From contig JACVJG010000007.1 of the NCBI GenBank assembly GCA_015711875.1, positions 1 through 17,221 on the forward strand: DNA of 17,221 bases, written 5' to 3'. Position 1 is the stretch's first letter; each line of letters begins with the position of its first letter. Source of the stretch: Candidatus Solincola jinzensis. GTDB taxonomy: Bacteria; Actinomycetota; Geothermincolia; Geothermincolales; RBG-13-55-18. A model generated the notes under the pieces. The model was given only the letters and a program-made list of their open reading frames with translations, ran no database searches and was not told where the DNA came from. A program made the position numbers and the translations under genes. Of this stretch, positions 2,840 to 17,221 are shown piece after piece.

Positions 2840-2928
2840 GCCGCGCCTCCAACCTGATCAATCCAGCCTTATTCATATCCATACTGGCGACAGAACACCA
2901 TCCCATGCCGTTGAAACATTGTTCTTTC

Positions 2929-2956
2929 ATTCTAGCATCTGTCCAGGGCCTGGAAA
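2929..2956 (-). promoter_or_regulatory. Possible promoter of the PAS kinase
   Basis: Read on the minus strand, TTTCCA (2956-2951) is followed after 16 nt by TAGAAT (2934-2929), and the -10 is preceded by TGC, giving an extended -10. It lies about 90 nt upstream of the GTG start. The -35 is weak, so this is only a candidate. Confidence 0.35.
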
Positions 2957-3151
2957 CCACATCGCGGCCGCGCTCCCTGAAATACGGATTTAAACGGACA
3001 GGTCGTGGCACAGGTCCAGGGTGGGCGAGCCATGCCTCTCTCGAGGCCCATGGCCTGTGGTCATATGTTCGTAAGCCTGGGCAACCCCGCGGCTTTCAAT
3101 CGATCGCTTTTTTACCCACAAAAGGGGCCATCACCTTACATACCGAATAGC

Positions 3152-3286
3152 ATTACGGGTCGCAGGTCATTCCAGGCTCCGCGGGCAGAGTTGGGGTTGT
3201 GGGGAATTAATGTCCCGGCCGAACGGCTATCACCTCGTGTCACAATCGAGATTACGGGTCGCAGCTTGTTCCCCGGCTCCGCGAGC
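3152..3286. repeat. Pair of imperfect 36-bp direct repeats, 99 bp apart
   Basis: Copy 1 is 3152-3187 and copy 2 is 3251-3286. Both begin with the same 14 bases, ATTACGGGTCGCAG, and after a short variable stretch share GGCTCCGCG. They lie between two same-strand genes. Function unknown; they could be decayed copies of a dispersed intergenic element or regulatory sites. Confidence 0.6.
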
Positions 3287-3352
3287 AAGAAAGCGACCGC
3301 ATGGGGATCATGTCCTGGACGGAAAACTGGTTGCGCGATCCTTCACGGCGCT

Positions 3353-4504: not shown

Positions 4505-4683
4505 CCTTCCCTCGCGCTTTCCTTCATCTGAGTCCCGCCTACCTACACGACTCGCCCGTCTTGTCCTGGCCGCTACACTTACTCGCAGCAATCCCCATCG
4601 GCGCTCGTTGGCCGGGTGCTTTTCGTGTTCCCGCGTCTAGGCCAGGCAAATATTCCCTGCGGCAACCCCCCACGCAGCTCGCC

Positions 4684-5355
4684 CTACTGGCCGCTGCACT
4701 GGTTCAATGTATAGACCAGGCACACGCTCAACCCCACTCCCATAAAGCGGTCGTCCGCCTCCGCCGCGAATCTCACGCCCATCCTCATGACCGGGCATCT
4801 GCTCTCACCCATCCAGGATTGCGGGGGCGGGAGGTCGTCGAGGGGATCGTCGCTCAGATCACGGAAGGTTATCCTCCCGTCCCTGTCCCTGTCCTCCACC
4901 GTCCAGTCGCCTGGCCTGAATCCCCCCGGAGTCGGGAGCGAGCCGTTAACCTTTCCCGTGAGCAGGTCTATGCTCCAATCGCTATTGCCGTATTCCAGCC
5001 TGGTTATCGTCATCATCCTGGCCATCTCGCCGGCCGTCACCGCCGCCGAAGCCCCTCCCGGGCCGGCCAGAAAGTATTCCATGCCTATCTCGAGATGGTC
5101 GGCGCAGAGGAGCCCGCGGTTGCGCAGGCTGACGAAAGACTCCTCGAATGGATATTCCTCGCCGGGTCTCATGTTCGGGGCGGTCCAGGTGCGGTTTACC
5201 CCATCCCTCCACGCCTCGTCCTGGTCCCTTATCTTGAGGTCGAAAAAGCCCGTGCCGACGCACGCCCTGGATTCTGCCTGCCATGCAAGAAGCCAAGCCA
5301 CCAAGGCAGCGACCAGAGCCACGATCACGATGGCACGGATCAGGATCTTCCCCAT
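4684..5355 (-). CDS. TasA-like exported protein, divergent paralog with DxDxDG loop
   Basis: 223-aa protein and clear paralog of the next gene upstream (5623-6306): the two share FDLKI/MDLKV, DQDE.W.DGV, a TRLEY motif, a PGDW motif and an Asp-rich loop (here DRDRDGRITFRDL, residues 155-167) like an EF-hand or dockerin calcium loop. Residues 5-25 form a hydrophobic membrane segment. Where the family normally has (S/F)D.ETS, this protein has only WQAESRAC, so SipW cleavage may be impaired or the protein may stay membrane-anchored. ATG 5355 is preceded by AGAGGA. It is 267 nt from the preceding gene, too far for translational coupling but same strand. Likely a minor or accessory component of the surface fibre system; this role is inferred. 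Confidence 0.72.
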   Translation of the reverse strand: MGKILIRAIVIVALVAALVAWLLAWQAESRACVGTGFFDLKIRDQDEAWRDGVNRTWTAPNMRPGEEYPFEESFVSLRNRGLLCADHLEIGMEYFLAGPGGASAAVTAGEMARMMTITRLEYGNSDWSIDLLTGKVNGSLPTPGGFRPGDWTVEDRDRDGRITFRDLSDDPLDDLPPPQSWMGESRCPVMRMGVRFAAEADDRFMGVGLSVCLVYTLNQCSGQ

Positions 5356-5600
5356 GCCCTTATCCTCTCGTCGGCAGACTCATGGCGTCCACATCCAAGC
5401 CGCACTTGCCCTCCCCTCCATCCAGGAGGTATCAAGAGCGATACCGTTACCATCCACTGACAACATCCACGCCGCACAATGCCATTCTCCACCCTTGAGG
5501 GGGCGAGTAGGCGCGTCCCCGGCGGGGGACGAGCTGTGTTCCTCCTCCTCCACCGCGCACCACGCCAGGACCTTTAAGGGGGTGGGGTGGGCCGCCCCCC

Positions 5601-5619
5601 GAGAGGGACGGCCCCTCTC
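5601..5619 (-). terminator. Hairpin directly after the second TasA-like gene
   Basis: A perfect 7-bp stem (GAGAGGG pairing with CCCTCTC, 5-nt loop) begins 3 nt past the stop codon at 5623. It is not followed by a T-run on either strand, so it may protect a mRNA 3' end or partly attenuate rather than terminate transcription. Confidence 0.35.
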
Positions 5620-5622
5620 AGC

Positions 5623-6306
5623 TTATTGCTCCTTTGTCTGGTTGAGGGTGACTTCGATGTCGACCAACAGCCTGTCTCCCTGGATCTCGTTGCCAGCGCC
5701 TTCGACGCACTTAAGCGATAGCTCGATGTGCAACGGGCCCAGGTTGTCCTTCAGTGGCTTGGGAAGGTTATCCACGTCCTGGTGAGCCAGGTCGTAGAAG
5801 GTCCTGATCCCGTCGCCGTCAACATCCTTTATCACCCAGTCTCCAGGCTGGTAGCCCGGCGGGTAAGGCGGACTCCCTCCCATGGTGCCCGCGGCGAGGT
5901 CCAGCCACCAGCCGGTATCCCTGTACTCGAGCCTGGTGATCTGCAGGCATCTGGCGAAATCGTCGGCCGAATTGGAGGGGCTGCCCGATTCCGCCGTTCC
6001 CTGCTCGATGTCGTACGAGCATGTGAGCTCCACGTGGTCGGCTTCCACGTTCCCAAAGTTGCTGAAAAAGAGGGACTGTGCGTAATCCTTCTCCCAGCCG
6101 GGATAGATGTTGTCGGCCCACCACGTCACGTGCACGCCGTCTGCCCAGAGTTCATCCTGGTCCTTGACCTTGAGGTCCATGACGCCGTCCTCGAACATGT
6201 TGCCGTGGCTGGTCTCGGCGTCGAAGAACGAGGCGTGCACTCCCAGCCCGAGCAGGCCGGCCACCAGCACGGTCGCCAGGAGCAGGCAAGCGATCCTGGC
6301 CTTCAT
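5623..6306 (-). CDS. TasA/CalY-like SipW-dependent exported protein with DVDGDG loop
   Basis: 227-aa exported protein. Residues 1-26 are a signal peptide (MKARIACLLLATVLVAGLLG..HA) followed by SFFDAETS, the ETS signature recognised by SipW-type signal peptidases, then MDLKVKDQDELW as in TasA/camelysin proteins. The mature domain (27-227) is predicted to be a beta-sandwich by family. An Asp-rich loop DVDGDGIRTFYDL (161-173) resembles a calcium-binding EF-hand loop; this is not part of standard TasA and is shared with the next gene (4684-5355). AAGGAG lies 9 nt upstream of the ATG. The gap from the preceding TasA-like gene is only 34 nt, so the two are very probably co-transcribed. Likely a structural or accessory subunit of a surface fibre or biofilm matrix. 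Confidence 0.8.
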   Translation of the reverse strand: MKARIACLLLATVLVAGLLGLGVHASFFDAETSHGNMFEDGVMDLKVKDQDELWADGVHVTWWADNIYPGWEKDYAQSLFFSNFGNVEADHVELTCSYDIEQGTAESGSPSNSADDFARCLQITRLEYRDTGWWLDLAAGTMGGSPPYPPGYQPGDWVIKDVDGDGIRTFYDLAHQDVDNLPKPLKDNLGPLHIELSLKCVEGAGNEIQGDRLLVDIEVTLNQTKEQ

Positions 6307-6340
6307 ATACGTACGCTCCTTCTACCCTCTGCCGGCCTCC

Positions 6341-6889
6341 TTAATGCAGCGAGAACACGATGTCGAAGGTGCAGATATCGCTCATGATGTTGTTGCCGGC
6401 GTTGGGATCGACCTTCCAGGCGATGGTAAGTTTCTTGCTCTCTCCGGCCGGGAGAGCGCCGAGGTCAAAGTCCTGGCAGAAGAGATCTTTAAGGGTTCCG
6501 GATTTGACCAAGACGTCATCATAACAGATGTCCAGAATTATCGCCTGGGACAGCTCGCCGGTGGTGGCATCGTCCGGGATCTCCGGCTCGTAGACGCCGT
6601 TCTCGTCATCAACAAGATTCGTGATGTGCAGGTCGGCGGTGCCGTCCAGGGACCCGGCGTTGGTGAGCTTGATATCCACTTCCCCTGCGTCGCCGGGCTT
6701 TACGTTCTTGACCTCGAAGTAGGTGGCCACGTTGGGGTCGTCCTCGCCGTCCACCTTCAGGTCCAGGGAGCCGGCCTGGAAGTAGTTCTTGCTGCTGGTC
6801 TCGGTGTCCGAGAAGGTGGCGTAAACGCCCAGCCCCACCAGGGCCGCCACCAGGGCCAGGGCCATGGAGGCCATGAGCACCTTTTTCAT
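6341..6889 (-). CDS. TasA-like (camelysin family) fibre protein
   Basis: 182-aa protein and the most canonical TasA/CalY relative in the window. Signal peptide at 1-24 (MKKVLMASMALALVAALVGL..YA) followed by TFSDTETS, the diagnostic motif after the SipW cleavage site, then SLDLKVDGED. The mature part keeps the family pattern: NVKPGD turn (about 62-67), TNAGSLDG (76-83), LPAGES (146-151) and a final beta strand CTFDIVFS. Start is ATG 6889: GGAGG lies 9 nt upstream; an in-frame TTG three codons earlier abuts the GGAGG and is unlikely. Cys at 122, 138 and 173 could form a disulfide. By homology it is secreted through Sec, cut by SipW and assembled into extracellular fibres. First gene of a same-strand set of four candidate SipW substrates downstream of sipW. 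Confidence 0.88.
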   Translation of the reverse strand: MKKVLMASMALALVAALVGLGVYATFSDTETSSKNYFQAGSLDLKVDGEDDPNVATYFEVKNVKPGDAGEVDIKLTNAGSLDGTADLHITNLVDDENGVYEPEIPDDATTGELSQAIILDICYDDVLVKSGTLKDLFCQDFDLGALPAGESKKLTIAWKVDPNAGNNIMSDICTFDIVFSLH

Positions 6890-7432
6890 GTCTTCCAACC
6901 TCCTTCATTCACGTTCCGTTCCCAAACGTCGGCCCCCAGTCGTTACGTGTGAGGGCCTTCACCAAAGTGGCCCCTCCGGCGCCTGTCTTCATCACCTGCA
7001 GCAGAATCCGCACCACCTCCTTTCCACGCGGTTTGGCGCCCTCGGCTGCCACCCATGGCTTTTGTGCAGGTCGAGGAAATGCGATGGCGGCCTTTCCTCA
7101 ACCCGCGAAGGCACGCCTCCCCTGCCGGACCCCTGGAAACCGGGGCTATCCGCGTGGAAGGATCAGCGGCATCGACCCTTCCCTTTGAACCCATTCCCCG
7201 CCTATAATGAAAACAGGGTGCACAAAGGCCTGGCAGAGGCTCGGCGTGTACCACCGGGGGCAGTGGCAGCTGCCCCCACCTTATTTATGGCGCCTTTTCC
7301 TCACACGAACGCATCAATTTGCGGCTTTCACCACCGCGCTCGTTCGGATGTAGAAAAACCGGCGCCTCTCTTCTCCCAGCATCCCTCCTTAATATGGCTG
7401 TTCTCAATCCTGTAATCACATGGCATAAAGTT
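6890..7432. other. Intergenic region upstream of the TasA-like genes
   Basis: About 540 bp with no supported gene. It should carry the promoter of the TasA-like genes, but I see no convincing minus-strand -35/-10 pair. On the plus strand there is a TATAAT at 7203-7208 with TTGAAC 12 nt upstream (spacing too short), and 7256-7277 forms a strong hairpin (GGGGGCAG pairing with CTGCCCCC) without a clean T-run. On the minus strand an 8-base GAGGGGCC/GGCCCTC hairpin lies about 70 nt before the TasA start. None of these is assigned a function. Confidence 0.5.
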
Positions 7433-7455
7433 AAAAACCCGACCTCACGATCGGG
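7433..7455 (-). terminator. Rho-independent terminator, minus strand
   Basis: On the minus strand CCCGATC - GTGA - GGTCGGG forms a 7-bp stem (one G-T pair) closed by a GNRA-type tetraloop and followed by TTTTT. It lies 230 nt past the sipW stop and well upstream of the TasA-like gene, so it should separate sipW transcription from the substrate genes, or end a small RNA starting near 7556. Confidence 0.8.
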
Positions 7456-7556
7456 CCGGTTTCACCACTTGCTCCTCGCACCACAAAGTGACCAGTCCTA
7501 CGCAGTGCGATTCATCGCATCCCTATCGCTACATTATGATGCCCTATATATCAGCG
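7433..7556 (-). ncRNA. Candidate small RNA or structured 3' UTR downstream of sipW
   Basis: An AT-richer island in an otherwise GC-rich window. On the minus strand a possible -10, TACAAT (7568-7563), with a weak TTTTCA -35 18 nt upstream, would start a transcript near 7556 that ends at the terminator at 7433, about 124 nt. Within it are complementary segments: TGCGA-TGAA-TCGCA, TCGCAC pairing with GTGCGA, and CACTT with AAGTG. No ORF with a ribosome binding site is present. It may equally be just the sipW 3' UTR. I do not recognise a known RNA family. Confidence 0.3.
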
Positions 7557-7684
7557 TAAATTATTGTATACATATTTTTCACACTTTGAAAAGTCTTTTT
7601 TCTGTGTTTTTGCTCCTTCGTTTTCCTCCCGGGAACCATGGGCTGAGCGCGCATGTTTCCGGTATTCTCAGTTACGTTTCCGCG

Positions 7685-8974
7685 CTATCCTCCCCCTCCT
7701 AATCGGCTCTCCGCTTTTCTTTTCTCCTCGCGCAATTCCACGATGCCCTTCCAGAGATCCCTGCCGAAGATCAGGAATAGCAGGGTCGCGGGCACGCACA
7801 TGAAAAGAAAAAAAGCGAACCTTGTCCGCATGAACCTCACGAAAAACCCGATATAAGGCAAATGGAGGATAACCTTGTCCACCTTGTCATCGGTGATAGA
7901 GACAAGGCTGGGGTCGGGGTCCTCGTTGGCATCCCCCTTGGTCTGGAACCACCTCTTGCCGTCCTCGTCCTCGATGGCAATCACCCTGTGGGTGACCTTC
8001 GTGCCATCGGGGGTGTTGAAACCTATGACATCGCCGACGCCTATCTCTTCCACTGGAACGGATCTGCATAGGATCATGCCCCCCACCTTCAGTGATGGCT
8101 CCATGGAGCCCGACAGGACAGGGTGCGCCTGCATCCCAAATCTGGGAGCGATCATGAGAAAAGCGGCGAAGAGGAAGACCAGGGCAAGGGCAAAGGTCAA
8201 CACCCACTCGAGGAAGCGGAGAAGCGGCTTGAGGCGTTTAGGCAACAGGCCGGTGCGGTCGCTTCGCGTGCCATCCTTTCTTCCCTTTTTCTGCCAGCGG
8301 GACGGTTTATTCGCGGTGCCCTTCTGCCCGGTCTCACGGTAAACGTCCGGCGGGTCGGGAGCCCCCGCCCCTTTTTTTACCCCGTCGACTCCAGCCTCCG
8401 TTCCTTCCGCCCCGGAGGGCCCGTTCTCCATTTCCGTCGAACGCTCTCCGTTGCCATCCTTCGCGACCGACAAGCGCCCTGCCTCCGTAAAGACCTTGCT
8501 CTCGTCTCTCTCCGGGTGAGCACCTTCAACAACAGCTTTGGCCTTCGCTTCGGGGGCGTTAAGTACCCCAGCCCGACCTGCCTCGAGCTCATCCATTCCT
8601 TGATCATCCGGATCCAGCCGCGTTCCCGCACTATTTCCGGCCATCTCCAAAACCCTCCTCGCCCCGTGGATACAGGGGTCGGTTTCCAGAAGCAACTCCG
8701 CCACCATGCTCCCGATAGCGGTATGGGAATACCGCGGGAAGGCCAAGACCCATCTCTCACGGTTCAGCGCGTCCGCTTCAAGCCTCTCTCGCAGCGCATA
8801 CTTTATCAGGCCTTCAGCCGGGGCAACGAGAGCGTAGTAGAACTCTCTCTCCTCCGAAGTGTAGTCAAGGGGCGGATTGGAGAGCGCCCGCACCACCCCC
8901 CGCGAAAGCCTCTTTCCCCGCTCCGCGAAATAAGCCTTCAGCTCTTCAACGTAAAGATTGCAGGCTTCTCTCAT
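7685..8974 (-). CDS. sipW: SipW-like signal peptidase I with a long unknown N-terminal extension
   Basis: 429-aa membrane serine protease of family S26B (ER/archaeal type), expected to cut the signal peptides of the TasA-like proteins encoded just downstream. Catalytic pattern: Ser290 in SGSMEPS, His329 in KVTHRVIAI (replacing the Lys of ordinary bacterial signal peptidases), Asp348 in TKGDANEDPD. A membrane segment at about 255-276 precedes the catalytic domain and another at about 380-405 follows it; the C-terminus is charged. Residues 1-115 form a predicted folded helical domain I do not recognise, joined by a low-complexity linker (about 116-245, first acidic, then Lys/Arg-rich). Typical SipW is around 190 aa, so the extension more than doubles it. 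ATG 8974 has no good Shine-Dalgarno, but a TATAAT lies about 40 nt upstream and no better internal start precedes the unknown domain. The peptidase part is certain; the extension's role is unknown. Confidence 0.9.
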   Translation of the reverse strand: MREACNLYVEELKAYFAERGKRLSRGVVRALSNPPLDYTSEEREFYYALVAPAEGLIKYALRERLEADALNRERWVLAFPRYSHTAIGSMVAELLLETDPCIHGARRVLEMAGNSAGTRLDPDDQGMDELEAGRAGVLNAPEAKAKAVVEGAHPERDESKVFTEAGRLSVAKDGNGERSTEMENGPSGAEGTEAGVDGVKKGAGAPDPPDVYRETGQKGTANKPSRWQKKGRKDGTRSDRTGLLPKRLKPLLRFLEWVLTFALALVFLFAAFLMIAPRFGMQAHPVLSGSMEPSLKVGGMILCRSVPVEEIGVGDVIGFNTPDGTKVTHRVIAIEDEDGKRWFQTKGDANEDPDPSLVSITDDKVDKVILHLPYIGFFVRFMRTRFAFFLFMCVPATLLFLIFGRDLWKGIVELREEKRKAESRLGGGG

Positions 8975-9015
8975 TATGTTCGTGGTCCCGTGAAATAGAT
9001 ATAGCCCTCATGCTG

Positions 9016-9021
9016 ATTATA
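9016..9021 (-). promoter_or_regulatory. Extended -10 promoter of sipW
   Basis: On the minus strand TGG-TATAAT is a perfect -10 hexamer with the TGn extension, placed so that transcription would begin about 35 nt before the sipW ATG. There is no good -35; the position where it would be is occupied by the tandem repeats at 9022-9068, which suggests activator-dependent or extended -10 initiation. Confidence 0.6.
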
Positions 9022-9068
9022 CCAGGATACTCAAAATATGAACCCCAGGATACTCAAAACGTGAACCC
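9022..9068. repeat. Tandem 24-bp direct repeat (23-bp period) at the sipW promoter
   Basis: Copies at 9022-9045 and 9045-9068 differ at only two positions; shared parts are CCAGGATACTCAAAA and TGAACCC. The first copy ends right at the sipW -10 box. The period of about two helix turns puts both copies on one DNA face, as for tandem activator or repressor sites. A remnant of an insertion-sequence end with internal repeats is the main alternative. Confidence 0.7.
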
Positions 9069-9099
9069 TTGAAGAGGCTCGGCTCGGGAAGAATAGAAT
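9069..9099 (+). promoter_or_regulatory. Possible promoter of the 77-aa protein gene
   Basis: TTGAAG (9069-9074) and TAGAAT (9094-9099) separated by 19 nt, about 75 nt upstream of the ATG at 9173. Spacing is long and the -35 imperfect. It would be divergent to the sipW promoter, with the tandem repeats in between. Confidence 0.3.
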
Positions 9100-9172
9100 C
9101 TAGCGTGGAGTCCTTCTTGAGGGAATAATGGATATGACCGTCATGCGGTGACATGGCCTTCGGGAGGTAGTG

Positions 9173-9406
9173 ATGGCTGATGCTTTTCCGGCCTTCAGGA
9201 AAAAAGCGCGGGAGATACTGGAGGGCTCCTCAGGCCTCGAGGACATGGAGGACTACCGGGAGCTGCTGTGCGGGGACTGCCCCTTCTACCATCACGGCGA
9301 GGAGGAGAACGAGGAGTGCGGCAGCTTCCTCTTATTGAAGGCGTTGCTGGAAAGAGACGCCTTCGACCTCGAGAAGGCGCTGCGGGAGCTGGAGAAGGGA
9401 CGCTGA
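9173..9406 (+). CDS. Small acidic protein with a Cys/His cluster, function unknown
   Basis: 77-aa cytoplasmic protein, not recognised. GGGAGG lies 5 nt upstream of ATG 9173; a GTG one codon earlier would be only 2 nt from it and is less likely. The centre carries C33-x2-C36-x3-HH-x7-C49 (LLCGDCPFYHH ... ECGSF), a plausible metal or Fe-S site. The flanks are predicted helical, and the second half is repeatedly Leu/Glu (LLLKALLERDAFDLEKALRELEKGR), consistent with a helix pair. No signal peptide or membrane segment. It lies 0.7 kb before the radical SAM gene on the same strand, too distant to claim an operon. The last 48 coding bases are imperfectly duplicated downstream (9475 onward), which suggests past local duplication. 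Confidence 0.65.
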   Translation: MADAFPAFRKKAREILEGSSGLEDMEDYRELLCGDCPFYHHGEEENEECGSFLLLKALLERDAFDLEKALRELEKGR

Positions 9407-9536
9407 AGGGCTGTTGCTCCGCCGCATGAAGCTGAGGTGTCGGGCATAGGACCCGAGGGCGGCGATGTTGAAAAGCCTTCGACCTCGAAAGGGCGCTGCG
9501 AGAGCTCGGGAAGGGATGCTGAAGGGCTGCCGCTCC
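9359..9536 (+). repeat. Imperfect duplication of the 3' end of the 77-aa gene
   Basis: Bases 9359-9420 (end of the CDS plus its stop) and 9475-9536 match at 54 of 62 positions with no gaps, an offset of 116 bp. Similarity continues patchily after (shared GTCGGGCAT), as expected of a decayed tandem duplication of about 116 bp. Because 116 is not a multiple of three and the second copy lacks a start, it is not a second gene. Confidence 0.75.
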
Positions 9537-10089
9537 TTTGTGCATCCCTGTGGCGTCGGGCATGGAGCTCGAAAGGCGATCGCGTTGGACGGATGTTTAC
9601 CGTGTCCTTCTCACGCGGGGCTTGCACACAACGCTGTTGCTCCAGCAGACACCGGCAAGGTTCTCACAGTTTGAAAGCCGGGGCAGCCATGGCCACAATA
9701 GGGGGTGCTGATAGAATATGGGGTTATTAAGCGCGCTGAAGAAAGCGGGGCGATCGCATCGCGGCTTGAGGGCGGAGATATCAGGATAGGAGCAACCGCT
9801 TGTCCCTATTTATGCGCGGCTTTAATCTATCTGCGGCTTAAAGGCGATGACATCAAGAGGACGAGCGACAGCGGCCGCAACACCGCGGAACGGGGCCGGC
9901 ATGGGCAAGGACGTTTCATGGAAGGGTTGGAGGCACCTCCTTCCTTCGAGGCCTAAAGCTGAGATGCAGGAGATAAGAAAAAGAGGAGGGCAGCTGGATC
10001 AATCCAGGATTCGAAAGCCGTAAGGCAAGACGCAACCGGAACCTTCGCGGGATGCGCACCTTTCACGGCCCTAAAGCAGGGAGATCAGT
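9407..10089. other. Gene-free stretch before the radical SAM gene
   Basis: About 0.68 kb. It begins with the decayed duplication of the preceding gene's tail. Two open frames (9705-9956 starting GTG, and 9847-10023, 58 codons) lack a sensible ribosome binding site and recognisable features. Close to the radical SAM gene are two small hairpins, CTGGA-TCAA-TCCAG (9994-10007) and GCC-GTAA-GGC (10017-10026), in a likely 5' leader. No RiPP precursor with a Cys-rich core was found here. Confidence 0.5.
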
Positions 10090-11271
10090 ATGGCAGGCAA
10101 TGTAGGGGAAGTGGTCTCGGGCAAGGATTTCCTGAGGCTCGCGGACGGGTGTTTCCTAAAGCGCCTGGAGGAGCCGTGCGTTTACGACGCGCCTCATGAT
10201 GAGCTGTACGAGCTCTCGGAGGAAGCGCTTGATTTTCTGGCCCTTTGCGACGGCACTCGCACGGTGGAGGAGCTCCGCCCCCAGGAGGATTTCCTCGACT
10301 ACTGCCTAGAGGAGGGGGTGCTGGAGGCGACGCGGGAGCCTCGCCCCAGGGAAATGCCGGTGGGGGTGAACGAGGTACCCTCGCTGCGCTATCTGATGGT
10401 GGAGGTCACCGACCGCTGCAACCTGCGCTGCCGCCACTGCTATCTCGGGGACGCCGGCACCACGGACCTCGATTACGCCATCCTCGCAGCGGCGCTCGAC
10501 GGCTTCGACGACATGGGGGGCCTCAGGCTGATGATCACCGGCGGCGAGCCCCTGCTGTACCCGGGATTCGCCACCCTCAACGAGGCCCTAGCGCACCGGA
10601 CATTCCGGCCCGTGCTCATCACCAATGGCACCCTGCTGCGCCGTGAAGACATCCCGAGCCTGAATTTCATGGAGATACAGTTCTCGGTGGACGGCCTCGA
10701 GGAAGGGCATGACTTCCTGCGCGGCGCAGGTTCCTTCTCCAGGGTCATGGATTCGCTGCGCGCTGCGCTGGATACGGGTATCGACGTCTCGGTGGCCACG
10801 GTAATCCACGCGCGCAACCTGCGAGAGCTGGAGGGGCTCGGCACCCTGCTCTCGGATATGGGGGTATCGGCCTGGAACCTGGAATACCCGGTGGTCGCCG
10901 GGCGCATGGGCGAGAACCCCGAGCTCATGCTGGCGCCCGAGGAAGCCGCCCCATATTTCGAGCTGGAGTGGGGCTGGGGGGCCCACGAGGGCGCGCCTGG
11001 CTACGCGTGCGGGGCGCACCTGGCCGCCGTGGAGCCGGGGGGGCGCCTTGTGAAATGCGGCTACTACCGGGAGATAAGCGGCGGGCACCTGGAAAAGGGC
11101 CTGCGGAGGGCGTGGCGCGAGCTGCCCAAAATGAGGCTGGAGGGGGAATGCGCCTCCTGCGAGCTGCTGGCGGATTGCGGGGGGGGCTGCCGCTTCCGGG
11201 CGGAGTCAACGGCGGGTCCGGGCGGCCCCGACCTCCTGATGTGCGTTCGCATGGGCCGCCGCAGCTTATAG
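10090..11271 (+). CDS. Radical SAM/SPASM peptide-maturase-like protein with N-terminal PqqD-like domain
   Basis: 393 aa. Residues about 1-85 resemble a PqqD-like fold used by peptide-modifying enzymes to bind a precursor leader (DELYELSEEALDFLALCDGTRTVEEL). The radical SAM core starts at C110-NLR-C114-RH-C117, which binds the SAM-cleaving [4Fe-4S] cluster, with ITGGEPLLY as the SAM-contacting GGE motif and ITNGTLL following. The C-terminal SPASM domain has all seven cysteines: C307, C323, then C354-x2-C357-x5-C363-x3-C367, and C385, predicting two auxiliary clusters. This is the layout of enzymes that crosslink or modify ribosomal peptides (PqqE, sactisynthase and anSME relatives). ATG 10090 follows GGGAGATCAGT. 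No precursor gene is adjacent; the nearest candidate is the 21-aa Cys-containing peptide 377 nt downstream. The enzyme class is clear; substrate and reaction are not. Confidence 0.88.
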   Translation: MAGNVGEVVSGKDFLRLADGCFLKRLEEPCVYDAPHDELYELSEEALDFLALCDGTRTVEELRPQEDFLDYCLEEGVLEATREPRPREMPVGVNEVPSLRYLMVEVTDRCNLRCRHCYLGDAGTTDLDYAILAAALDGFDDMGGLRLMITGGEPLLYPGFATLNEALAHRTFRPVLITNGTLLRREDIPSLNFMEIQFSVDGLEEGHDFLRGAGSFSRVMDSLRAALDTGIDVSVATVIHARNLRELEGLGTLLSDMGVSAWNLEYPVVAGRMGENPELMLAPEEAAPYFELEWGWGAHEGAPGYACGAHLAAVEPGGRLVKCGYYREISGGHLEKGLRRAWRELPKMRLEGECASCELLADCGGGCRFRAESTAGPGGPDLLMCVRMGRRSL

Positions 11272-11608
11272 GTATCGTGGGCGGAGCAACCTCAAGGTGT
11301 GAGCAGGCGCCCTCGGCAAAGGAGTAAACCGCGAGAGTCATCACCGCCCGTGGCATGATGCCACCATCCCGCAAAGGCCGCATGCGGTCTTGCCGCACCG
11401 AAGGTATTCCTGGCATCGATTTCCATCGAGTGTTCAGGGGGCGCGTCTTCGGCAGGCATACACCGGAGCTTTTTCGCAGGCGTTGAAACGGCGGGCGCTC
11501 TCAGCGGTTTCCGCGCTCCGCGGCAGGAAATGACTCCGGCTCTGGCCTCCCCGCGGGACCATGCACGGCGAGGTTGACGGTTGTGGTTTAAGGCTTGCGG
11601 GGCGGGTG
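11272..11608. other. Gene-free stretch between radical SAM and mini-peptide genes
   Basis: No ORF with a ribosome binding site on either strand. It contains a perfect hairpin GTGGCA-TGA-TGCCAC (11350-11364) and the palindrome CCGCATGCGG shortly after it, neither followed by a T-run, so transcription from the radical SAM gene may or may not stop here. Confidence 0.5.
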
Positions 11609-11614
11609 TATAAT
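11609..11614 (+). promoter_or_regulatory. Promoter -10 box of the 21-aa peptide gene
   Basis: A perfect TATAAT preceded by a GC-rich stretch and followed by AT-rich DNA. Expected start of transcription is near 11621, giving a leader of about 27 nt. A TTGACG at 11574-11579 is too far (29 nt) to act as -35; TTTAAG at 11587-11592 (16 nt spacing) is a weak alternative. Confidence 0.65.
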
Positions 11615-11647
11615 CTTATTAGGAACCACTACCAAGGAGGTGGTGAG

Positions 11648-11713
11648 ATGAGGATCACGAAGATCCCCAGACGGAAGGGCGGCACTTGCAAGTGCAATAA
11701 GAGCTGCGGTTAG
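11648..11713 (+). CDS. 21-aa basic peptide ending in a CxCxxxC motif (candidate RiPP precursor or leader peptide)
   Basis: A 21-codon ORF. The first ten residues are MRITKIPRRK, then GG, then TCKCNKSCG to the end. Seven Lys/Arg and no acidic residue give about +7 net charge. The three Cys (14, 16, 20) form CxCxxxC. Support that it is a real gene: AAGGAGG ends exactly 7 nt before the ATG, a perfect TATAAT lies 33 nt upstream, and a strong intrinsic terminator starts 14 nt after the stop, so the transcript is about 135 nt and encodes nothing else. The GG before the Cys segment could be a leader/core junction as in double-glycine leaders, though the leader would be very short. It lies between a radical SAM/SPASM enzyme with a PqqD-like domain and a secreted hydrolase. 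Alternatives: a metal-binding or antimicrobial mini-protein, or a cysteine-sensing leader ORF. Not recognised from any named family. Confidence 0.7.
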   Translation: MRITKIPRRKGGTCKCNKSCG

Positions 11714-11727
11714 CACGCCCTAACCGG

Positions 11728-11755
11728 GAGGGGGGCCGAACGGCTCCCCTCTTTT
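11728..11755 (+). terminator. Strong rho-independent terminator after the 21-aa peptide gene
   Basis: GAGGGGGGCC(G) pairs with (C)GGCTCCCCTC in a 10-11 bp stem with a 2-4 nt GAAC loop and one G-T pair, followed directly by TTTT. It closes a compact monocistronic unit and isolates the peptide gene from the hydrolase gene downstream. Confidence 0.85.
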
Positions 11756-11823
11756 CATGCCGTAAATATACGCATGGAACCCTCTGCCCCACTATATCGC
11801 CCGCTCATTCCATATAAAAACCC

Positions 11824-11853
11824 TTGCGATGTTCATATATTGCATGTTATAAA
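11824..11853 (+). promoter_or_regulatory. Promoter of the secreted hydrolase
   Basis: TTGCGA (11824-11829), 18 nt spacer, TATAAA (11848-11853) preceded by TGT (extended -10), in a locally AT-rich patch. The leader of about 70 nt contains a GGGAA-ACTC-TTCCC hairpin at 11884-11897. Confidence 0.5.
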
Positions 11854-11927
11854 TAACCCGAGTCGCAAAAGAGGGGTTGCCGGGGGAAACTCTTCCCGCC
11901 GCACTTCGTCGTCTGAAGGGGGTAACG

Positions 11928-13838
11928 ATGACGAGATCATTCCGTTTTCGTGTGATACTGCTGCTCGCCGTGGCCATCGTGCTCGCGGTCATGTCGGTTG
12001 CGCCGGCGGTGGGCGCCGGTGCAGCGGCGACCGGGACGGACAGCGGGGAAACCAGCGTTCCCTCCGGCCTTGCATCCTCACACGAGGTGATCAGGGTCGA
12101 CGAACAATGGACCATGGAAGACGGGGTGAAGCTGCCGGTATCGGTGTTTTATCCCGCCGGCGGGGACGCGGATGGCACGCCGCAGGAGGACTATCCCGCC
12201 ATCGTCTTCGTGCACCCCTGGGACTGCGACAAGCTCATCTTCGAGAAGATGGCCGAGGAATACGCGGGTGACGGCTACGTGTGCGTCACCTTCACCATGA
12301 GGGGATGGTATGGAGCGGGCGGCCAGATAGGCTGCATGGACCCGGAGAAGGAGATCAGGGACGTCAGGAACATAATCACCCTGTTGTCGGAAGACGAGCG
12401 CTTCCCGGTGCTCTGGGACGACAAAGGCCCGGTGGTGGGTATCACCGGTTATTCCATGGGGGGCTGCACCTCCTTCCTGGCGGCGCCACGCAGGGACCCC
12501 AGGCCGGGAGACCCGGGGGACCAGCGCATCCGCGCTGTGGTGCCCATGCACGGCGGAGCGGACCTGCTGTTCTCCATCCTCCCCAACGGGGCCTCCAAGG
12601 CGCTGTGGGGGGTGTTCCTGGTGGCCGGCTCCTATATCGGCAATCTCTCCGGCTTCATGATGCACATACTGGACATCATGATGAAACAGGGCATGGATCC
12701 CTGGCAGAAGCTGCAAGCCGCCATAGACGCCTTCTGGAAGGCCATGCCGCCGGTGAGCAACGTCACCGACATGCTGGTATGGATAACCGGGGCCGCCATG
12801 CAGCGGCGCATGGAGGACTTGGAGAAGGGGCGGCAGTATCTGCGCGAGCGTTCCGCCCGCTACTGGTGCGATGGGGAATACGACGGCGTGGTGGAGCACC
12901 CCATCGTGGCCCCCACCCTTATCCTGGCGGGCTGGAACGACGACATCTTCTATGCCAACGAGGGGCTGCGCATATTCTCCACCGCCGTGGACGCCCCCGC
13001 GCGCATGATCATCACCAACCACGGGCATATCGGGGGCATGGGGGACAATTTCTTCATCGACCTCCCCGAAAGCCCCGAGTACCAGTGGGTGAGCGAACAG
13101 ATCAAAGCGTGGTTCGACCGCTTCCTCAAAGGCGTGGACAATGGGGCAGACAGGGAGCCGCGCCTGGTCTTTTACCGCGACCGGGACCCGCAGAGCTATG
13201 GACAGGCTGATTCCTATCCCCTGCCGGGAACGCAGGAGACTCCTTTCTACCTCAACGCCTCGAACGGCAACCTGCTCCTCACCAAGACCAAGCCCCGCAG
13301 CTCTAACGGGGATTTCGAGCTGCTGGTTAACGTCGGCCTCACCGGCTCCGTCTCCCTTCCCTATTACCAGGACGTCCCGAACATGGTGGGTGGGGAGACC
13401 ATGCAGGTGCCCACGAGGATCAAGCTCTTCGGCATCCCCCTAACGGAACGCTGCTATCTCTCGCAGCCCCTGACCCGCGATCTAACCATCATGGGGGCGC
13501 CTAAGCTCGAGCTCTATTACAAGAGCTCGCAGCCCTTCACGCAGTTGATACCCTGGATCTACGAGGTAGCTCCGGACGGCACCGAGACGCTGGTGAGCCG
13601 TGGCTATTACGAGGGCTACAATCCCGACGTCTGGACCATGTGCGACACCGTGGCGCAGCCGGTGGAGATGCAGGCCTGTTACCATCGCTTCGCGAAGGGG
13701 AGCCGCATAAAGCTGGAAATATCCACCGCCGACCTCTTGATGACCTGGCCATACTTCGGGCTCACCTTTATCCAGCTCCAGCGCAATCGCGTTTCGGCAT
13801 CCCGCCTCATATTGCCGGTGGTGCCGAACACTTACTGA
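11928..13838 (+). CDS. Secreted CocE/NonD-family (S15-like) serine hydrolase
   Basis: 636-aa exported alpha/beta hydrolase of the X-Pro dipeptidyl-peptidase/cocaine-esterase type. Start chosen at ATG 11928: AGGGGGT lies 4 nt upstream and it gives a clear signal peptide (MTRSFRFRVILLLAVAIVLA..., cleavage around AVGA, residue ~30); an in-frame TTG 17 codons earlier would bury it. Catalytic triad candidates: Ser176 in GYSMGG, Asp338 in GWNDD, His365 or His367 in TNHGHIGG. The N-terminal strand region has the family's MEDGVKLPVSVFYPAGG and VFVHPWDCDK. From about residue 410 on is the beta-sandwich PepX_C-like domain (LPGTQETPFYLNAS, GAPKLELYYKSS, SRGYYEGYNP, SRIKLEIS). Substrate (peptide or ester) cannot be told from sequence. 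It follows the mini-peptide gene but has its own promoter. Family call is firm; any role with the peptide is speculation. Confidence 0.9.
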   Translation: MTRSFRFRVILLLAVAIVLAVMSVAPAVGAGAAATGTDSGETSVPSGLASSHEVIRVDEQWTMEDGVKLPVSVFYPAGGDADGTPQEDYPAIVFVHPWDCDKLIFEKMAEEYAGDGYVCVTFTMRGWYGAGGQIGCMDPEKEIRDVRNIITLLSEDERFPVLWDDKGPVVGITGYSMGGCTSFLAAPRRDPRPGDPGDQRIRAVVPMHGGADLLFSILPNGASKALWGVFLVAGSYIGNLSGFMMHILDIMMKQGMDPWQKLQAAIDAFWKAMPPVSNVTDMLVWITGAAMQRRMEDLEKGRQYLRERSARYWCDGEYDGVVEHPIVAPTLILAGWNDDIFYANEGLRIFSTAVDAPARMIITNHGHIGGMGDNFFIDLPESPEYQWVSEQIKAWFDRFLKGVDNGADREPRLVFYRDRDPQSYGQADSYPLPGTQETPFYLNASNGNLLLTKTKPRSSNGDFELLVNVGLTGSVSLPYYQDVPNMVGGETMQVPTRIKLFGIPLTERCYLSQPLTRDLTIMGAPKLELYYKSSQPFTQLIPWIYEVAPDGTETLVSRGYYEGYNPDVWTMCDTVAQPVEMQACYHRFAKGSRIKLEISTADLLMTWPYFGLTFIQLQRNRVSASRLILPVVPNTY

Positions 13839-14252
13839 GTCCCAAGGGGGCATAAAAGCGTGGGGGCATTGCTTCGCGTGTGTCTCTGAGCGAAACGAAG
13901 CCCCTGACGTGGCGAAGTTCTCTTTGAGAGGGACCGGGATCAGAGAACTCGAAAAGGGGTCTTTGGCTCCCCGGCATGATCACGTGATGCGAAAACGGCT
14001 GCAGCCCGGATGAGTGGAGAAGTTGCAGGCGCGTTTTTCACGGCACCGCTCATCAGGCAGGGAAACCGTCACGGTAGTAATATGTCATTATATTCCAGCT
14101 TACCCCTTTGGCCCCTCCGCTTTAGCTCCATAGAACCAAGTCGGGAATTTTTCCTTCCATAACCTCCCAGAAAGGCGACGTGCTCTCCCGCCTATCACTC
14201 CAGAGAACAGTACCTGGCGTTTTCCAGCTCAGAACCAGGAGGCCTGCGGCCC
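13839..14252. other. Gene-free stretch between convergent genes
   Basis: About 410 bp between the 3' ends of the hydrolase (plus) and the DNA-metabolism protein (minus). No ORF with a ribosome binding site and no clear terminator with a T-run. It holds a 10-bp perfect palindrome ATCACGTGAT (13979-13988). Confidence 0.5.
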
Positions 14253-15008
14253 CTAAGCGTTGTACGGCCTTTTTCCCGAAGGCTCCTCGATGAGCATACG
14301 CCAGTACCTCTCAGGCATGAGGTTCCTCTGCAAGCGGGGATTGCGCCTTTCCGGCACCGCGATGACCTCGAAGTAATCGCGCCACAGCTTCTGCGCGCGG
14401 CGCTCGCAGTTCGATAGATCGGGCTCGAAGCCGGGCGCGGCGACGAAGGCGAGTTCGGCGCCGCTGCACAGGGCGGCCCGACCCCGCCCGAGGTCGTGGA
14501 TCATCCAGTCCTGGTCGCCCATGCGTCGCAGGAAATGCGGCGCCACCAGCCGCAACACGTCATGCTTCGCCTCCATGGGCGCGTAATACAGGCCGCTCCT
14601 CAAGCGGCGGAACCTCAGGAATCCGCGCATACGGTGTGCCTCGCGCGCAGTTCGCCTTCCCATGTCGCGCACCTCACGCACGCTGTCGTGATGCAGGTGG
14701 GCATCGACCCCGCGCCCGTGGACAAAACCGAGCCGCAGGTAATGGAAGATGTGAGCCTCGCGACCCTTTTCCTCCGAGAGGAAGGCGTACAGGCAGCGCC
14801 TGAGCGCGCCGGCGGAGATGTGACCGCATATTCGCGCGCACATCTCCTCGACGCTGGCGGGGTCCGTTTCCACCGCGACCTCCTCCGCGAAGAGGCTTGT
14901 CTGCGCCGCGGAGCCCCGCGGCAGGAAATAATCCGGTTCCTCACCCTCATCGAGGCAGCGCGCCACGGCGCACAGAAAACCCTCGAACTCCCCGTCATAA
15001 ACAAGCAC
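14253..15008 (-). CDS. Probable DNA-metabolism protein, partner of the UDG-linked radical SAM protein (TIGR03915-type)
   Basis: 251 aa. Matches the family of proteins encoded beside, or fused to, a uracil-DNA-glycosylase-like domain and next to the radical SAM protein present here at 15719-17026. Recognisable family parts: N-terminal VYDGEFEGFLCAV, a central VREVRDMGRRTAREAHRMRGFLRFRRL, LYYAPMEAKHDVLRLVAPHF, the DWMIHDLGRGRAAL segment, and the C-terminal LWRDYFEVIAVPERRNPRLQRNLMPERYWRML. About 250 residues is the usual stand-alone length; there is no fused glycosylase domain. GTG 15008 is the first conventional start after an in-frame TGA, but the very strong GGAGG is 18 nt away; a CTG at 15017 would be 9 nt from it and could be the real start, adding three residues. 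No signal peptide. Biochemical activity is unknown; repair or modification of DNA is a context-based guess. Confidence 0.85.
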   Translation of the reverse strand: MLVYDGEFEGFLCAVARCLDEGEEPDYFLPRGSAAQTSLFAEEVAVETDPASVEEMCARICGHISAGALRRCLYAFLSEEKGREAHIFHYLRLGFVHGRGVDAHLHHDSVREVRDMGRRTAREAHRMRGFLRFRRLRSGLYYAPMEAKHDVLRLVAPHFLRRMGDQDWMIHDLGRGRAALCSGAELAFVAAPGFEPDLSNCERRAQKLWRDYFEVIAVPERRNPRLQRNLMPERYWRMLIEEPSGKRPYNA

Positions 15009-15020
15009 TGTTCCCAGGCC

Positions 15021-15032
15021 GGATCACCTCCT
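15021..15032 (-). promoter_or_regulatory. Full-length Shine-Dalgarno with unusual spacing
   Basis: Minus-strand AGGAGGTGATCC is complementary to the whole usual 3' tail of 16S rRNA. It is 18 nt (from GGAGG) before GTG 15008 but 9 nt before an in-frame CTG at 15017. This favours the CTG as a non-standard start of the gene at 14253-15008. Confidence 0.6.
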
Positions 15033-15718
15033 CCTGGAAACCATCACGCCGGTTGCCGCGCTCATCACATCGCCTAACTCATGTCCACGTTTCGAAAACC
15101 CCGTGCCATCCAGGGCTTTTCGCCAGCTTGCCGCGTTCGGCATAATATCTTCAATGTATGACCACCCCGCTATGGCCCGCCCCGGCACGACCGACTCCTC
15201 TGGACCGCCATGTCACGATGTCACGGCATGATATCCATACCCATGCCGGCCATCCTTACGCGACAGGCGGCCAGTAGGCGGCCAAGCCTGGCGTTATGCT
15301 CGCAAGCCATGAACTCAGGGCAGTGCCACGTTTCAATCGTTCTTTCACCTGCATGAGGAGCTCCAATCACTCATACAGCAGGCCAAAACAGGGGGCGCAG
15401 CCACGTTTCAACAGGGTGGCAGGTAACCCAGGCATCATATTGCGTGCCTCGCTTCATCCGAGAGTCGGAAGTTCGGTCGAAAAAAGCGAAGCGCGATGTA
15501 TTTGCCATATATTAGCAACATGATACGGAGGTATTACCGTCATGAACCAGCTTCCTTTCGACCCATGGTGAGCCCGTAACGGTCTCCCCTAACGGGGAAA
15601 TCCTCCCATTCTTTTCACATGGCCACCTCGTGAAGGCCCGACCGTGCACGAGGCGAGGCCTGACCCTATCGGCTGCTCCTGCCTCACCAGGCACGAGGCG
15701 AGGCCTGACCCCATTGCC
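15033..15718. other. Gene-free stretch between the two DNA-metabolism genes
   Basis: About 0.69 kb with no convincing gene. Contents seen: a 9-codon plus-strand ORF at 15542-15571 with GGAGG 10 nt upstream, followed by a small CCCC-TAAC-GGGG hairpin; a 12-base GCCACGTTTCAA present at 15325 and 15400; and the 21-bp direct repeats at 15646 and 15691. The repeats are too few and irregular to be a CRISPR array. Confidence 0.5.
15646..15711. repeat. Two 21-bp direct repeats, 45 bp apart
   Basis: GCACGAGGCGAGGCCTGACC plus one more C occurs exactly at 15646-15666 and again at 15691-15711, just past the 3' end of the radical SAM gene. The repeated GGCCTGACCC core looks like a dispersed intergenic element; function unknown. 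Confidence 0.7.
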
Positions 15719-17026
15719 TCACAGCTCCCCGGTCGCGCTGGTCAGGGCATCGCTGGCGCCCACGCTGAAAGCCTCCGGCGCGAAAAGGGGCATCTGACCC
15801 CTCCCACTCAAGCTTTCCGCCTCCCGGTAATGGGTGGAGATCCTTCGTCTTATCTCCTCATCGCTCGCCCGGGAGTCAGCGTAATATCTGCCCCGGCAGG
15901 TGATGAAATAGCGCGCCCTTTTCATCACCACTCCGATCTTGCGCAGGTCCTCGAAATCCAGGGAATGCACGCGCCGCGCGGATATGATACGGCGCGCCGA
16001 CCTCACCCCCAGGCCGGGTACGCGCAACAAGGTCCCGTAGTCCGCGCGGTTGACCTCCACGGGAAAGAACTCGGGATGCCGCATAGCCCATGCCGACTTG
16101 GGGTCCAGCTCCTCGTCGAGAAAGGGATGCTCCTCATCCACGATCTCCTCGCATGAAAAGCGGTAGTGGCGCAGTAGCCAGTCCGCCTGGTAGACACGGT
16201 GCTCCCTCAACAGAGGAGGCCGCTCCAGGAGCGGGAGGCGGGGGTCGTCGGAAACGGGTACGAACGCGGAGTAATAGACCCGCCTGAGCTTGAAATCGCC
16301 GTACAGCCTCTCGGCCAGCTTGAGGATGTGCAGGTCGCTTTCCGGCGTCGCTCCCACGATCAGTTGGGTGCTCTGGCCTGCCGGCACGAAGGCCGGGGCT
16401 TTGCGCTGTCGTCTTCTTTCCTCGCGGCTCTCCTCGATAAGCGCCGCCAGCTCGCCCATGGGCCCGAGGATATCCTCCCTCCTTTTATCCGGAGCCAGAA
16501 GCCGGAGGCTTTCCTCCGTAGGCAACTCGATGTTCACGCTCATGCGGTCGGCGTAAAGGCCGGCGCGACGCAGCAGCTCCGGGCTTGCACCCGGTATGGC
16601 CTTGAGGTGGATATAGCCGTTGAAGCCCTTTTCCTTTCTCAAGAGCTCGGCGGTACGGAGCAGCATCTCCATGGTATGGTCCGGGCTTTTCCACACCGCG
16701 GAGCTGAGAAAGAGGCCTTCGATGTAGTTGCGCCGGTAGAAGTCCATGGTTAGGTCAGCCAGCTCCCGCGGCGTGAAGGAGGCGCGCGGCCGGGAAGCGG
16801 AGGCGCGGTTGGCGCAGTAGGCGCAGTCGTAGATGCAGCGGTTTGAGAAGAGCACCTTGAGCAGGGAGATGCAGCGACCGTCGTCTGACCAGCTGTGGCA
16901 TACCCCGAAGCTGGAGCAGTCACCAAGCTTTCCGCGCCGTCCCGGTCTCCTCACCCCGCTGGAGGAACAGGAGACATCGTAACGGGCAGCTCCACCCAGT
17001 ATCCTGAGCTTCTCCTCCATATCCAT
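15719..17026 (-). CDS. Putative DNA modification/repair radical SAM protein (UDG-linked, TIGR03916-type)
   Basis: 435 aa. N-terminal ILGGAARYDVSCSSSG and GDCSSFGVCHSW are hallmark segments of this family, followed by the radical SAM cluster motif C64-IYD-C68-AY-C71. The core continues with GLFLSSAVWKSPDHTME, YIHLKAIPG and RMSVNIELPTEESLRLLAPDK, then FVPAGQSTQLIVGATPESD. Residues about 328-360 (LLRVPGLGVRSARRIISARR) are a helix-hairpin-helix, a sequence-independent DNA-binding element, which is why a DNA target is assumed. ATG 17026 was chosen because family members begin a few residues before this point and GGGA lies 10 nt upstream; the open frame extends 14 codons further to a TTG without a ribosome binding site. 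The partner protein (14253-15008) follows on the same strand after a 0.7-kb gap rather than directly. The reaction is not known. Confidence 0.9.
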   Translation of the reverse strand: MDMEEKLRILGGAARYDVSCSSSGVRRPGRRGKLGDCSSFGVCHSWSDDGRCISLLKVLFSNRCIYDCAYCANRASASRPRASFTPRELADLTMDFYRRNYIEGLFLSSAVWKSPDHTMEMLLRTAELLRKEKGFNGYIHLKAIPGASPELLRRAGLYADRMSVNIELPTEESLRLLAPDKRREDILGPMGELAALIEESREERRRQRKAPAFVPAGQSTQLIVGATPESDLHILKLAERLYGDFKLRRVYYSAFVPVSDDPRLPLLERPPLLREHRVYQADWLLRHYRFSCEEIVDEEHPFLDEELDPKSAWAMRHPEFFPVEVNRADYGTLLRVPGLGVRSARRIISARRVHSLDFEDLRKIGVVMKRARYFITCRGRYYADSRASDEEIRRRISTHYREAESLSGRGQMPLFAPEAFSVGASDALTSATGEL

Positions 17027-17221
17027 TCTCACGCCGTCCCTTCTCCGCGAGATCGGCATCCACCACAAGTATGAAGGACGCGTATGACATCCTCTCCCCG
17101 TAGCCTTGTCGTATCGGCGGAGAAGCTATCCTTTGCAAAACGACGCCCGCAGCGGTGGACGAACGCGCACTGACAGAGAGGGCGCAGGTGCCGTGGGAGG
17201 GATCTTTCGTCAGTCGATGAC
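17027..17221. other. Right edge, upstream of the radical SAM gene
   Basis: 195 bp with no supported gene. One minus-strand frame is open from the edge to a TGA just before ATG 17026, but its translation is Cys/Arg-rich with no recognisable motif and may be chance. No clear promoter was identified. Confidence 0.4.

Follow-up and report, generated by a model that had tools for sequence, protein, structure and literature searches.

Is the short open reading frame (ORF) found 3′ of a radical S-adenosylmethionine (SAM) enzyme gene in Candidatus Solincola jinzensis a gene, and what might a product of 21 residues do? The ORF (11648-11713, + strand) resides in a DNA stretch of 17,221 nucleotides, hereafter the window (GenBank assembly GCA_015711875.1, contig JACVJG010000007.1, positions 1 to 17,221, forward strand). 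Comparison with related genomes confirmed that the mini-gene is real, and made it likely that peptide and enzyme are the precursor and the maturase of a new class of radical SAM-dependent ribosomally synthesized and post-translationally modified peptides (RiPPs).

The ORF starts with an ATG at 11648, ends with a TAG at 11711-11713, and encodes the peptide MRITKIPRRKGGTCKCNKSCG, which features seven Lys or Arg, no acidic residues, and neither Tyr nor Glu. A Shine-Dalgarno sequence AAGGAGG (11634-11640), near-invariant in 11 aligned sequences, is spaced 7 nt from the ATG, and a -10 box TATAAT is found at 11609-11614. A reading of the sequence alone (the sequence-only reading) had listed these signals along with the 21-codon ORF, and had described the product as a basic peptide with a CxCxxxC-type arrangement of cysteines; all are present, and both the Cys pattern and the positions of the signals are conserved in relatives, the -10 box as TATAAT or CATAAT, with a conserved GGTTTA box (11585-11590) 18 nt before it. 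The strong terminator also proposed there held in part. A 12-bp hairpin (11726-11753, -23.3 kcal/mol) follows the stop after 12 unpaired nt, the longer computed fold pairs largely the same bases, its position is conserved, and compensatory changes occur in five pairs among the 11 sequences, some cells being broken; the T-tract is, however, short. GGTTTA is a poor -35 box, and the predictions of a promoter/terminator scanner include no sigma-70 promoter and no terminator for the + strand at the mini-gene; for relative L008 they likewise include no promoter. TTGACGG and GGTTTA boxes at 11574-11590, 5′ of the -10 box, might constitute an operator, TTGACGG being found in six of the 11 sequences. 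Taken together, the mini-gene bears the marks of an independent transcription unit.

The claim that signals so complete are unlikely to arise by chance was borne out: 60 simulated windows of the same composition contained 0.05 Shine-Dalgarno-preceded mini-ORFs with three Cys per window. A single copy is only suggestive; it is conservation across three phyla that settles the question. A first scan with the enzyme, carried out on one genome per species (84,980 species), gave 13 loci, 10 of them clearly related (47-86% identity); nine of the 10 bear the titles Actinomycetota, Actinobacteria or Candidatus Solincola, and the other Nitrospirae. The mini-ORF lies directly 3′ of the enzyme gene in nine, the Nitrospirae copy reading MTIRRVSRKGTTTCKCKSSC; in the tenth it resides on another contig, after a different gene.

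Peptide and enzyme were found together in three sampled groups, which we take to be the class Geothermincolia, the Nitrospirota and the Desulfobacterota. With a cut-off of 260 bits, enzyme orthologues were found in 22 of 31 Geothermincolia genomes, 21 of which (all except G015) carry the peptide. The gene is divergent from the enzyme gene in three of the 21 (G012, G014, G021) and on another contig in four (G002, G020, G026, G029), possibly because of assembly breaks. Seven of the nine enzyme-less genomes matched a loose DNA pattern, and the match opened in each (a second one in G022 lies outside this set) was no such peptide. In Nitrospirota (295 genomes) the enzyme was found in 98 at E ≤ 1e-30, and a pattern for CKCxx, a Ser-like residue, Cys and a stop in 96 of the 98 vs. 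13 of the 197 others (Fisher p 2.9e-60, the genomes being related to one another). Three of these 13 matches are family-like, two by their matched letters (G139, G316) and one, G262, opened and found to hold two peptides; the enzyme-less G287 has a 19-residue, Shine-Dalgarno-preceded ORF ending in CKCLSSC, without a basic N-terminus. In Desulfobacterota (395 genomes) the enzyme occurs in 38 at E ≤ 1e-40, and the pattern in 37 of the 38 vs. 26 of 357 (p 8e-34). Translation of 24 of these 26 matches left seven fitting CKCxx[ST]C-stop; two of the seven were opened (L251, L261), and no such mini-ORF was found in them. The reversed pattern matched in 23 of 295 and 31 of 395 genomes (counted by eye), a frequency similar enough to equate the rate in enzyme-less genomes with the chance rate. 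Among 246 Actinomycetota genomes 17 were positive, three of them outside the 31 of the class, and two of these three loci were opened and both contain the peptide; none of 200 Pseudomonadota genomes was positive, an uncalibrated negative.

Enzyme loci were searched for ORFs of 17-26 codons, preceded by a Shine-Dalgarno sequence and with three or more Cys within the final nine residues. The 83 loci comprise the window, 22 of 22 from the class, and the 30 of 98 from Nitrospirota and 30 of 38 from Desulfobacterota for which DNA was returned. All 65 ORFs found end in CKCxx[ST]C(G), and at least one is present in 64 of the 83 loci; for comparison, larger regions (L189-L248) totaling 878,530 bases hold five such ORFs of other sequence. 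The members, 20 residues long in 51 cases, 21 in 13 and 19 in one, share the consensus M-x-I-x-K-[VI]-x-[KR]-x4-[TL]-C-K-C-x-x-S-C(-G). Among 53 unique sequences I3, K15 and the three Cys are present in all, K5 and S19 in 52 each. Neither Pfam nor NCBIfam assigned the window peptide or any of five relatives to a family. Among 69 peptide genes, 64 are followed by a hairpin that runs into a T-rich stretch (a weak one in three) and five by none, and a TATAAT-like box is missing in many Nitrospirota and Desulfobacterota genes.

Ratios of nonsynonymous to synonymous differences (pN/pS) of 0.09 in Geothermincolia (n = 11), 0.28 in Nitrospirota (n = 18) and 0.36 in Desulfobacterota (n = 27) indicate that the peptide is under purifying selection. 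The conservation asked for in the sequence-only reading was seen for the Cys pattern and, in the window's group, for the flanking signals; the contrary outcome, a hairpin conserved by itself, was not what was found, as the terminator stem varies and the peptide does not. The GG to which that reading had given weight did not survive, residues 9-12 being variable and positions 11-12, GG in the window, reading SS, QG, TT, RG and others elsewhere. A double-glycine leader is therefore not supported. Two further observations concern the family. A 19-residue form, MI[KR]K[VI]SGKxxxTCKCKxSC, is found in small Nitrospirota genomes (L229-L234, L239-L242, L248) in an unusually fixed neighborhood, upstream of a TPR-like gene and a gene that is IspE-like by eye in 11 of 11 loci, with a further, Prs-like gene following in 10. 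In L186, L209 and L283/L287 two different CKC peptides occur per genome or adjacent to each other (in L186, CKCKSSC with CKCHSSC).

The enzyme (10090-11271, + strand) is a radical SAM/SPASM protein of 393 residues with an N-terminal PqqD-like domain, a putative RiPP recognition element (RRE). C110, C114, C117, C307, C323, C357, C363, C367 and C385 are invariant in 63 homologues; the set includes the CX3CX2C motif and the SPASM cysteines, the spacing of the C-terminal cysteines being taken by us as SPASM spacing. The best structural matches of its model are the RiPP maturases SkfB and SuiB, CteB being also matched. The alignment extends over 354 residues (14-390) with SuiB and over 325 (19-372) with SkfB, and at least 45 of the first 92 enzyme residues must therefore be aligned; the N-terminal domains of both proteins are presumably RREs. 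The enzyme falls below the cut-off of every NCBIfam model among the 25 of 73 matches listed, PqqE not being among them. The hallmark of mycofactocin systems, a match to MftC (TIGR03962), is missing at 65.9 bits vs. a cut-off of 265, as is that of GeoRSP (TIGR04303) at 88.1 vs. 400; scores of 85.2 of 625 bits for StsB and 60.7 of 340 for PapB place the enzyme outside those subfamilies, and say no more. Homologues number at least 1033 at E ≤ 1e-30, and the names among the 120 listed are generic ('radical SAM protein', 'SPASM domain' protein, 'AdoMet-dependent heme synthase', 'hypothetical protein'). One copy (G201:C1:1271441-1272637) has an in-frame TAG.

A precursor-maturase pair is the best explanation because near-complete co-occurrence comes together with a shared N-terminal pattern, a variable spacer and a fixed core, and with the fold of the enzyme. 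Two general features of RiPP systems are in place, a short conserved precursor linked to a modifying enzyme and an RRE-like domain on the latter, weakly supported by sequence; of the functions listed in the sequence-only reading, the minimal RiPP precursor is the one strongly supported. The N-terminal half of the peptide (I3, K5, V/I6) would be recognized by the PqqD-like domain, and the radical SAM/SPASM domain would modify the CKCxxSC core, with the cysteines or their neighbors as the probable sites. The enzyme may work in trans, one enzyme serving several precursors, as precursors can lie hundreds of kilobases off and some genomes have two or three of them. Enzyme and peptide map far apart on single contigs of several Nitrospirota, for example at 691,728 and 1,368,062 in G114, 855,617 and 1,000,692 in G087, and 1,271,441 and 1,393,638 in G201.

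A third component is proposed, a small Cys-containing protein (LLCxDCxFY...ECG; 9170-9406, + strand) encoded 683 nt before the enzyme gene, which might assist the modification. All 22 loci of the class encode a protein of this type, about 73-82 residues long, 5′ of the enzyme and in the same orientation, and in some it overlaps the enzyme start. Of 30 Desulfobacterota loci, 29 have a profile match close to the enzyme, 17 of them found in the first, uniterated round, and in at least six the match shares one long open frame with the enzyme. Matches in 9 of 30 Nitrospirota loci, eight on the opposite strand, are doubtful and may reflect profile drift. The window protein has no Pfam match, and its model (predicted local distance difference test score 86.4) has a sole PDB match with E 8.7. 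In a survey of 44 genomes, 41 with the enzyme cluster, recurring neighbors were PAS-kinase-like proteins (16), TIGR03916-like proteins (10, this class only) and the small Cys protein (9, by BLAST), all others being found six times or fewer. The small Cys protein is the only convincing partner among the conserved neighbors.

What the modified peptide would do is suggested by paralogues. Many Nitrospirota genomes encode further peptides ending in CKCHxSC, away from the enzyme, and regions were fetched for all 23 genomes with such a match among those listed. A CKCH peptide in G073, whose frame is not intact as sequenced, was left out before counting, CKCHLWC in G082 and CKCYYSC in G049 were not taken as family members, and two Desulfobacterota CKCH and two Nitrospirota CKCY peptides were included. 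A heavy-metal P-type ATPase is encoded within 8 kb of 21 of 27 CKC[HY] peptides vs. 1 of 65 peptides of other types, that of the window included (p 2e-14; the copies are related to one another, and some have short flanks); splitting H from all others gives 19 of 25 vs. 3 of 67. One representative ATPase, which scores 604.9 bits vs. 397 required by the copper model TIGR01511 and carries two YHS domains, was identified by model, the remainder by tblastn at E 1e-20. YHS-thioredoxin-reductase-like (eight loci), Met-rich (six) and SHOCT (four) proteins recur in 20 CKCH regions, and in none of 20 K-type regions. G203 and G262 hold two such paralogous peptides each.

On this sequence evidence the H/Y paralogues, named for the residue after CKC and placed in copper-efflux loci, probably handle Cu(I), and peptides of the window's K/N type would bind either copper or a different metal, or else function as redox or cluster ligands. 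The odds that the product serves as a small metal ligand within the cell are not far below even. The whole proposal, put forward tentatively, is that one trans-acting radical SAM maturase makes a set of 20-residue metal-binding RiPPs in at least three phyla, with minimal metallothionein or metal cofactor as their possible intracellular role, the residue after CKC (His/Tyr vs. Lys/Asn/Ser) marking copper-efflux duty. The metal- or cluster-binding role named in the sequence-only reading gains indirect support from the copper-pump neighborhoods of the paralogues, and none from the surroundings of the window's own type.

Several observations weigh against the precursor-maturase reading and its metal clause. 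PqqD is reached weakly by sequence, in 3 of 63 members with a best E of 0.0078; 19 of the 83 enzyme loci lack an adjacent peptide; no peptide was found in G015, G068, G326 and G543; and of the pattern matches counted in 96 Nitrospirota and 37 Desulfobacterota genomes a part was opened. Among the neighbors of the enzyme in the 44 genomes, neither a peptidase nor an exporter is widely recurrent. It is paralogues that supply the metal link: none of 16 CKCN rows, the type of the window, is close to copper genes, although several of them have short flanks, and neither are the two Desulfobacterota CKCH peptides.

The product could instead be a small redox cofactor, processed from the peptide as pyrroloquinoline quinone (PQQ) is from PqqA or mycofactocin from MftA, an alternative that concerns the metal-binding clause and is unlikely, if worth keeping in view. 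Conservation of the peptide with a near-invariant core, scattered genes, and the lack of a widely recurrent exporter or immunity gene fit a cofactor better than a metal ligand, K-type precursors are not near copper genes, and the PqqD-like plus radical SAM/SPASM architecture is what such a system would have. PQQ and mycofactocin precursors have Glu-Tyr and Val-Tyr cores, respectively; here, in contrast, the core is CKCxxSC, no dehydrogenase recurs as a partner in the 44 genomes, and the H/Y paralogues lie at copper pumps. That the peptide goes unmodified and serves as a mini metallochaperone or cluster ligand, the radical SAM protein being a mere genomic companion, is distinctly less probable. 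CxC...C motifs can bind metals unaided, and the copper neighborhood of the paralogues would suit such a role, yet co-occurrence with one radical SAM/SPASM enzyme is near-complete over three phyla even where the genes are unlinked, and the enzyme has the fold of a RiPP maturase.

A secreted cationic antimicrobial or signal peptide, to which a small, basic, Cys-rich product and a RiPP-like maturase might point, and which the sequence-only reading had included as an antimicrobial, is very improbable because no exporter or immunity gene recurs widely (nor does a regulator, and ABC-type ATPase clusters are found in 5 of the 44 genomes); moreover, the core hardly diversifies and the GG site is not conserved. 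The cysteine-responsive leader or attenuator of the same reading, suggested by Cys codons ahead of a terminator-like stem and by hairpins over the start region, is hardly credible, given that the mini-gene has its own terminator-like stem, that the following gene varies between genomes (relatives of the window's 3′ neighbor, a CocE/S15 hydrolase at 11877-13838, being found in the fetched regions of 5 of the 44), that the mini-gene is divergent from the enzyme in G012, G014 and G021 and far from it in others, and that selection acts on amino acids, the stem varying while the peptide does not.

Two hairpins with 5-nt loops lie in tandem over the start region (11627-11666). The first, CACTACC-aagga-GGTGGTG (11627-11645), covers the Shine-Dalgarno sequence; its seven pairs are kept in all 11 sequences, the variation being a single A-U to G-U change with no compensatory changes. 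The second, GGATC-acgaa-GATCC (11652-11666), spans codons 2-7 and is conserved also at synonymous sites. In the window's group pS is 0.117 over the start-region codons vs. 0.494 further on. Because a block of about 40 nt (the Shine-Dalgarno sequence and codons 1-7) is nearly invariant, synonymous sites included, and folds into two hairpins, an extra RNA-level role of the start region is suggested in this group. Regulation by CsrA, considered because of the GGA in the loop of the first hairpin, is not supported, since CsrA is found in just 7 of 20 genomes and is missing from many that carry the hairpin.

The nearest known systems are PQQ, mycofactocin, sactipeptides, ranthipeptides, streptide, methanobactin and bufferins. 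PQQ biosynthesis (PqqA/PqqD/PqqE) shares the tiny precursor, the PqqD-like domain and the radical SAM/SPASM enzyme, and the PQQ precursor lies apart from its enzyme in some genomes, as in the present system. The precursor here is, in contrast, unrelated, and the PqqD-like domain is fused to the enzyme; PqqE is not among the family matches listed for the enzyme, and the window peptide has no Glu-Tyr pair. The sactipeptide and ranthipeptide maturases SkfB and CteB, whose substrates contain Cys, and SuiB are the best structural matches of the enzyme; the present system differs from theirs in a precursor of about 20 residues, the lack of a recurrent exporter, conservation across phyla, and several precursors per enzyme. 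Bufferins are Cys-containing RiPPs linked to copper handling, made by multinuclear non-heme iron-dependent oxidative enzymes (MNIOs) and mostly provided with signal peptides (PMC12452194); methanobactins are also RiPPs linked to copper handling (PMC3621798). Unlike bufferins, the peptides described here have 20 residues, no signal peptide and a radical SAM enzyme. Biarylitides resemble them in having precursor genes too short to be picked up by automatic detection, and differ in a five-residue precursor and a P450 enzyme (PMC13417212). The motif strings were not found in the open-access literature as far as it was accessible, nor was an account of the family by topic; a description elsewhere is possible.

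Other features of the window complete the picture. Genes for a putative DNA repair protein and a radical SAM protein, a TIGR03915 plus TIGR03916 pair with both above cut-off, lie at 14253-17068 (- strand); TIGR03916-like genes are near the enzyme in 10 genomes of the class, and in G002 the mini-gene directly follows a TIGR03915/TIGR03916 pair. A Cyclic-di-GMP-II riboswitch (7445-7531, - strand; 63 bits vs. a cut-off of 53.5) is located upstream of, and on the same strand as, the genes for a camelysin/M73-like protein (6341-6898, - strand) and for two small proteins similar by eye (5623-6306 and 4684-5355, - strand). A protein with a signal peptidase S26 domain is encoded at 7685-8974 (- strand). 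The region looks like a cyclic di-GMP-controlled surface-fiber locus.

The length limit that gene callers usually apply excludes genes as short as those of the precursors, and the proposed RiPP class is apparently undescribed. A substrate is thereby proposed for a radical SAM family of at least 1033 homologues. The lineages concerned are known mostly as anaerobes, and the finding suggests that bacteria of such largely anaerobic lineages make copper or metal ligands by radical chemistry.
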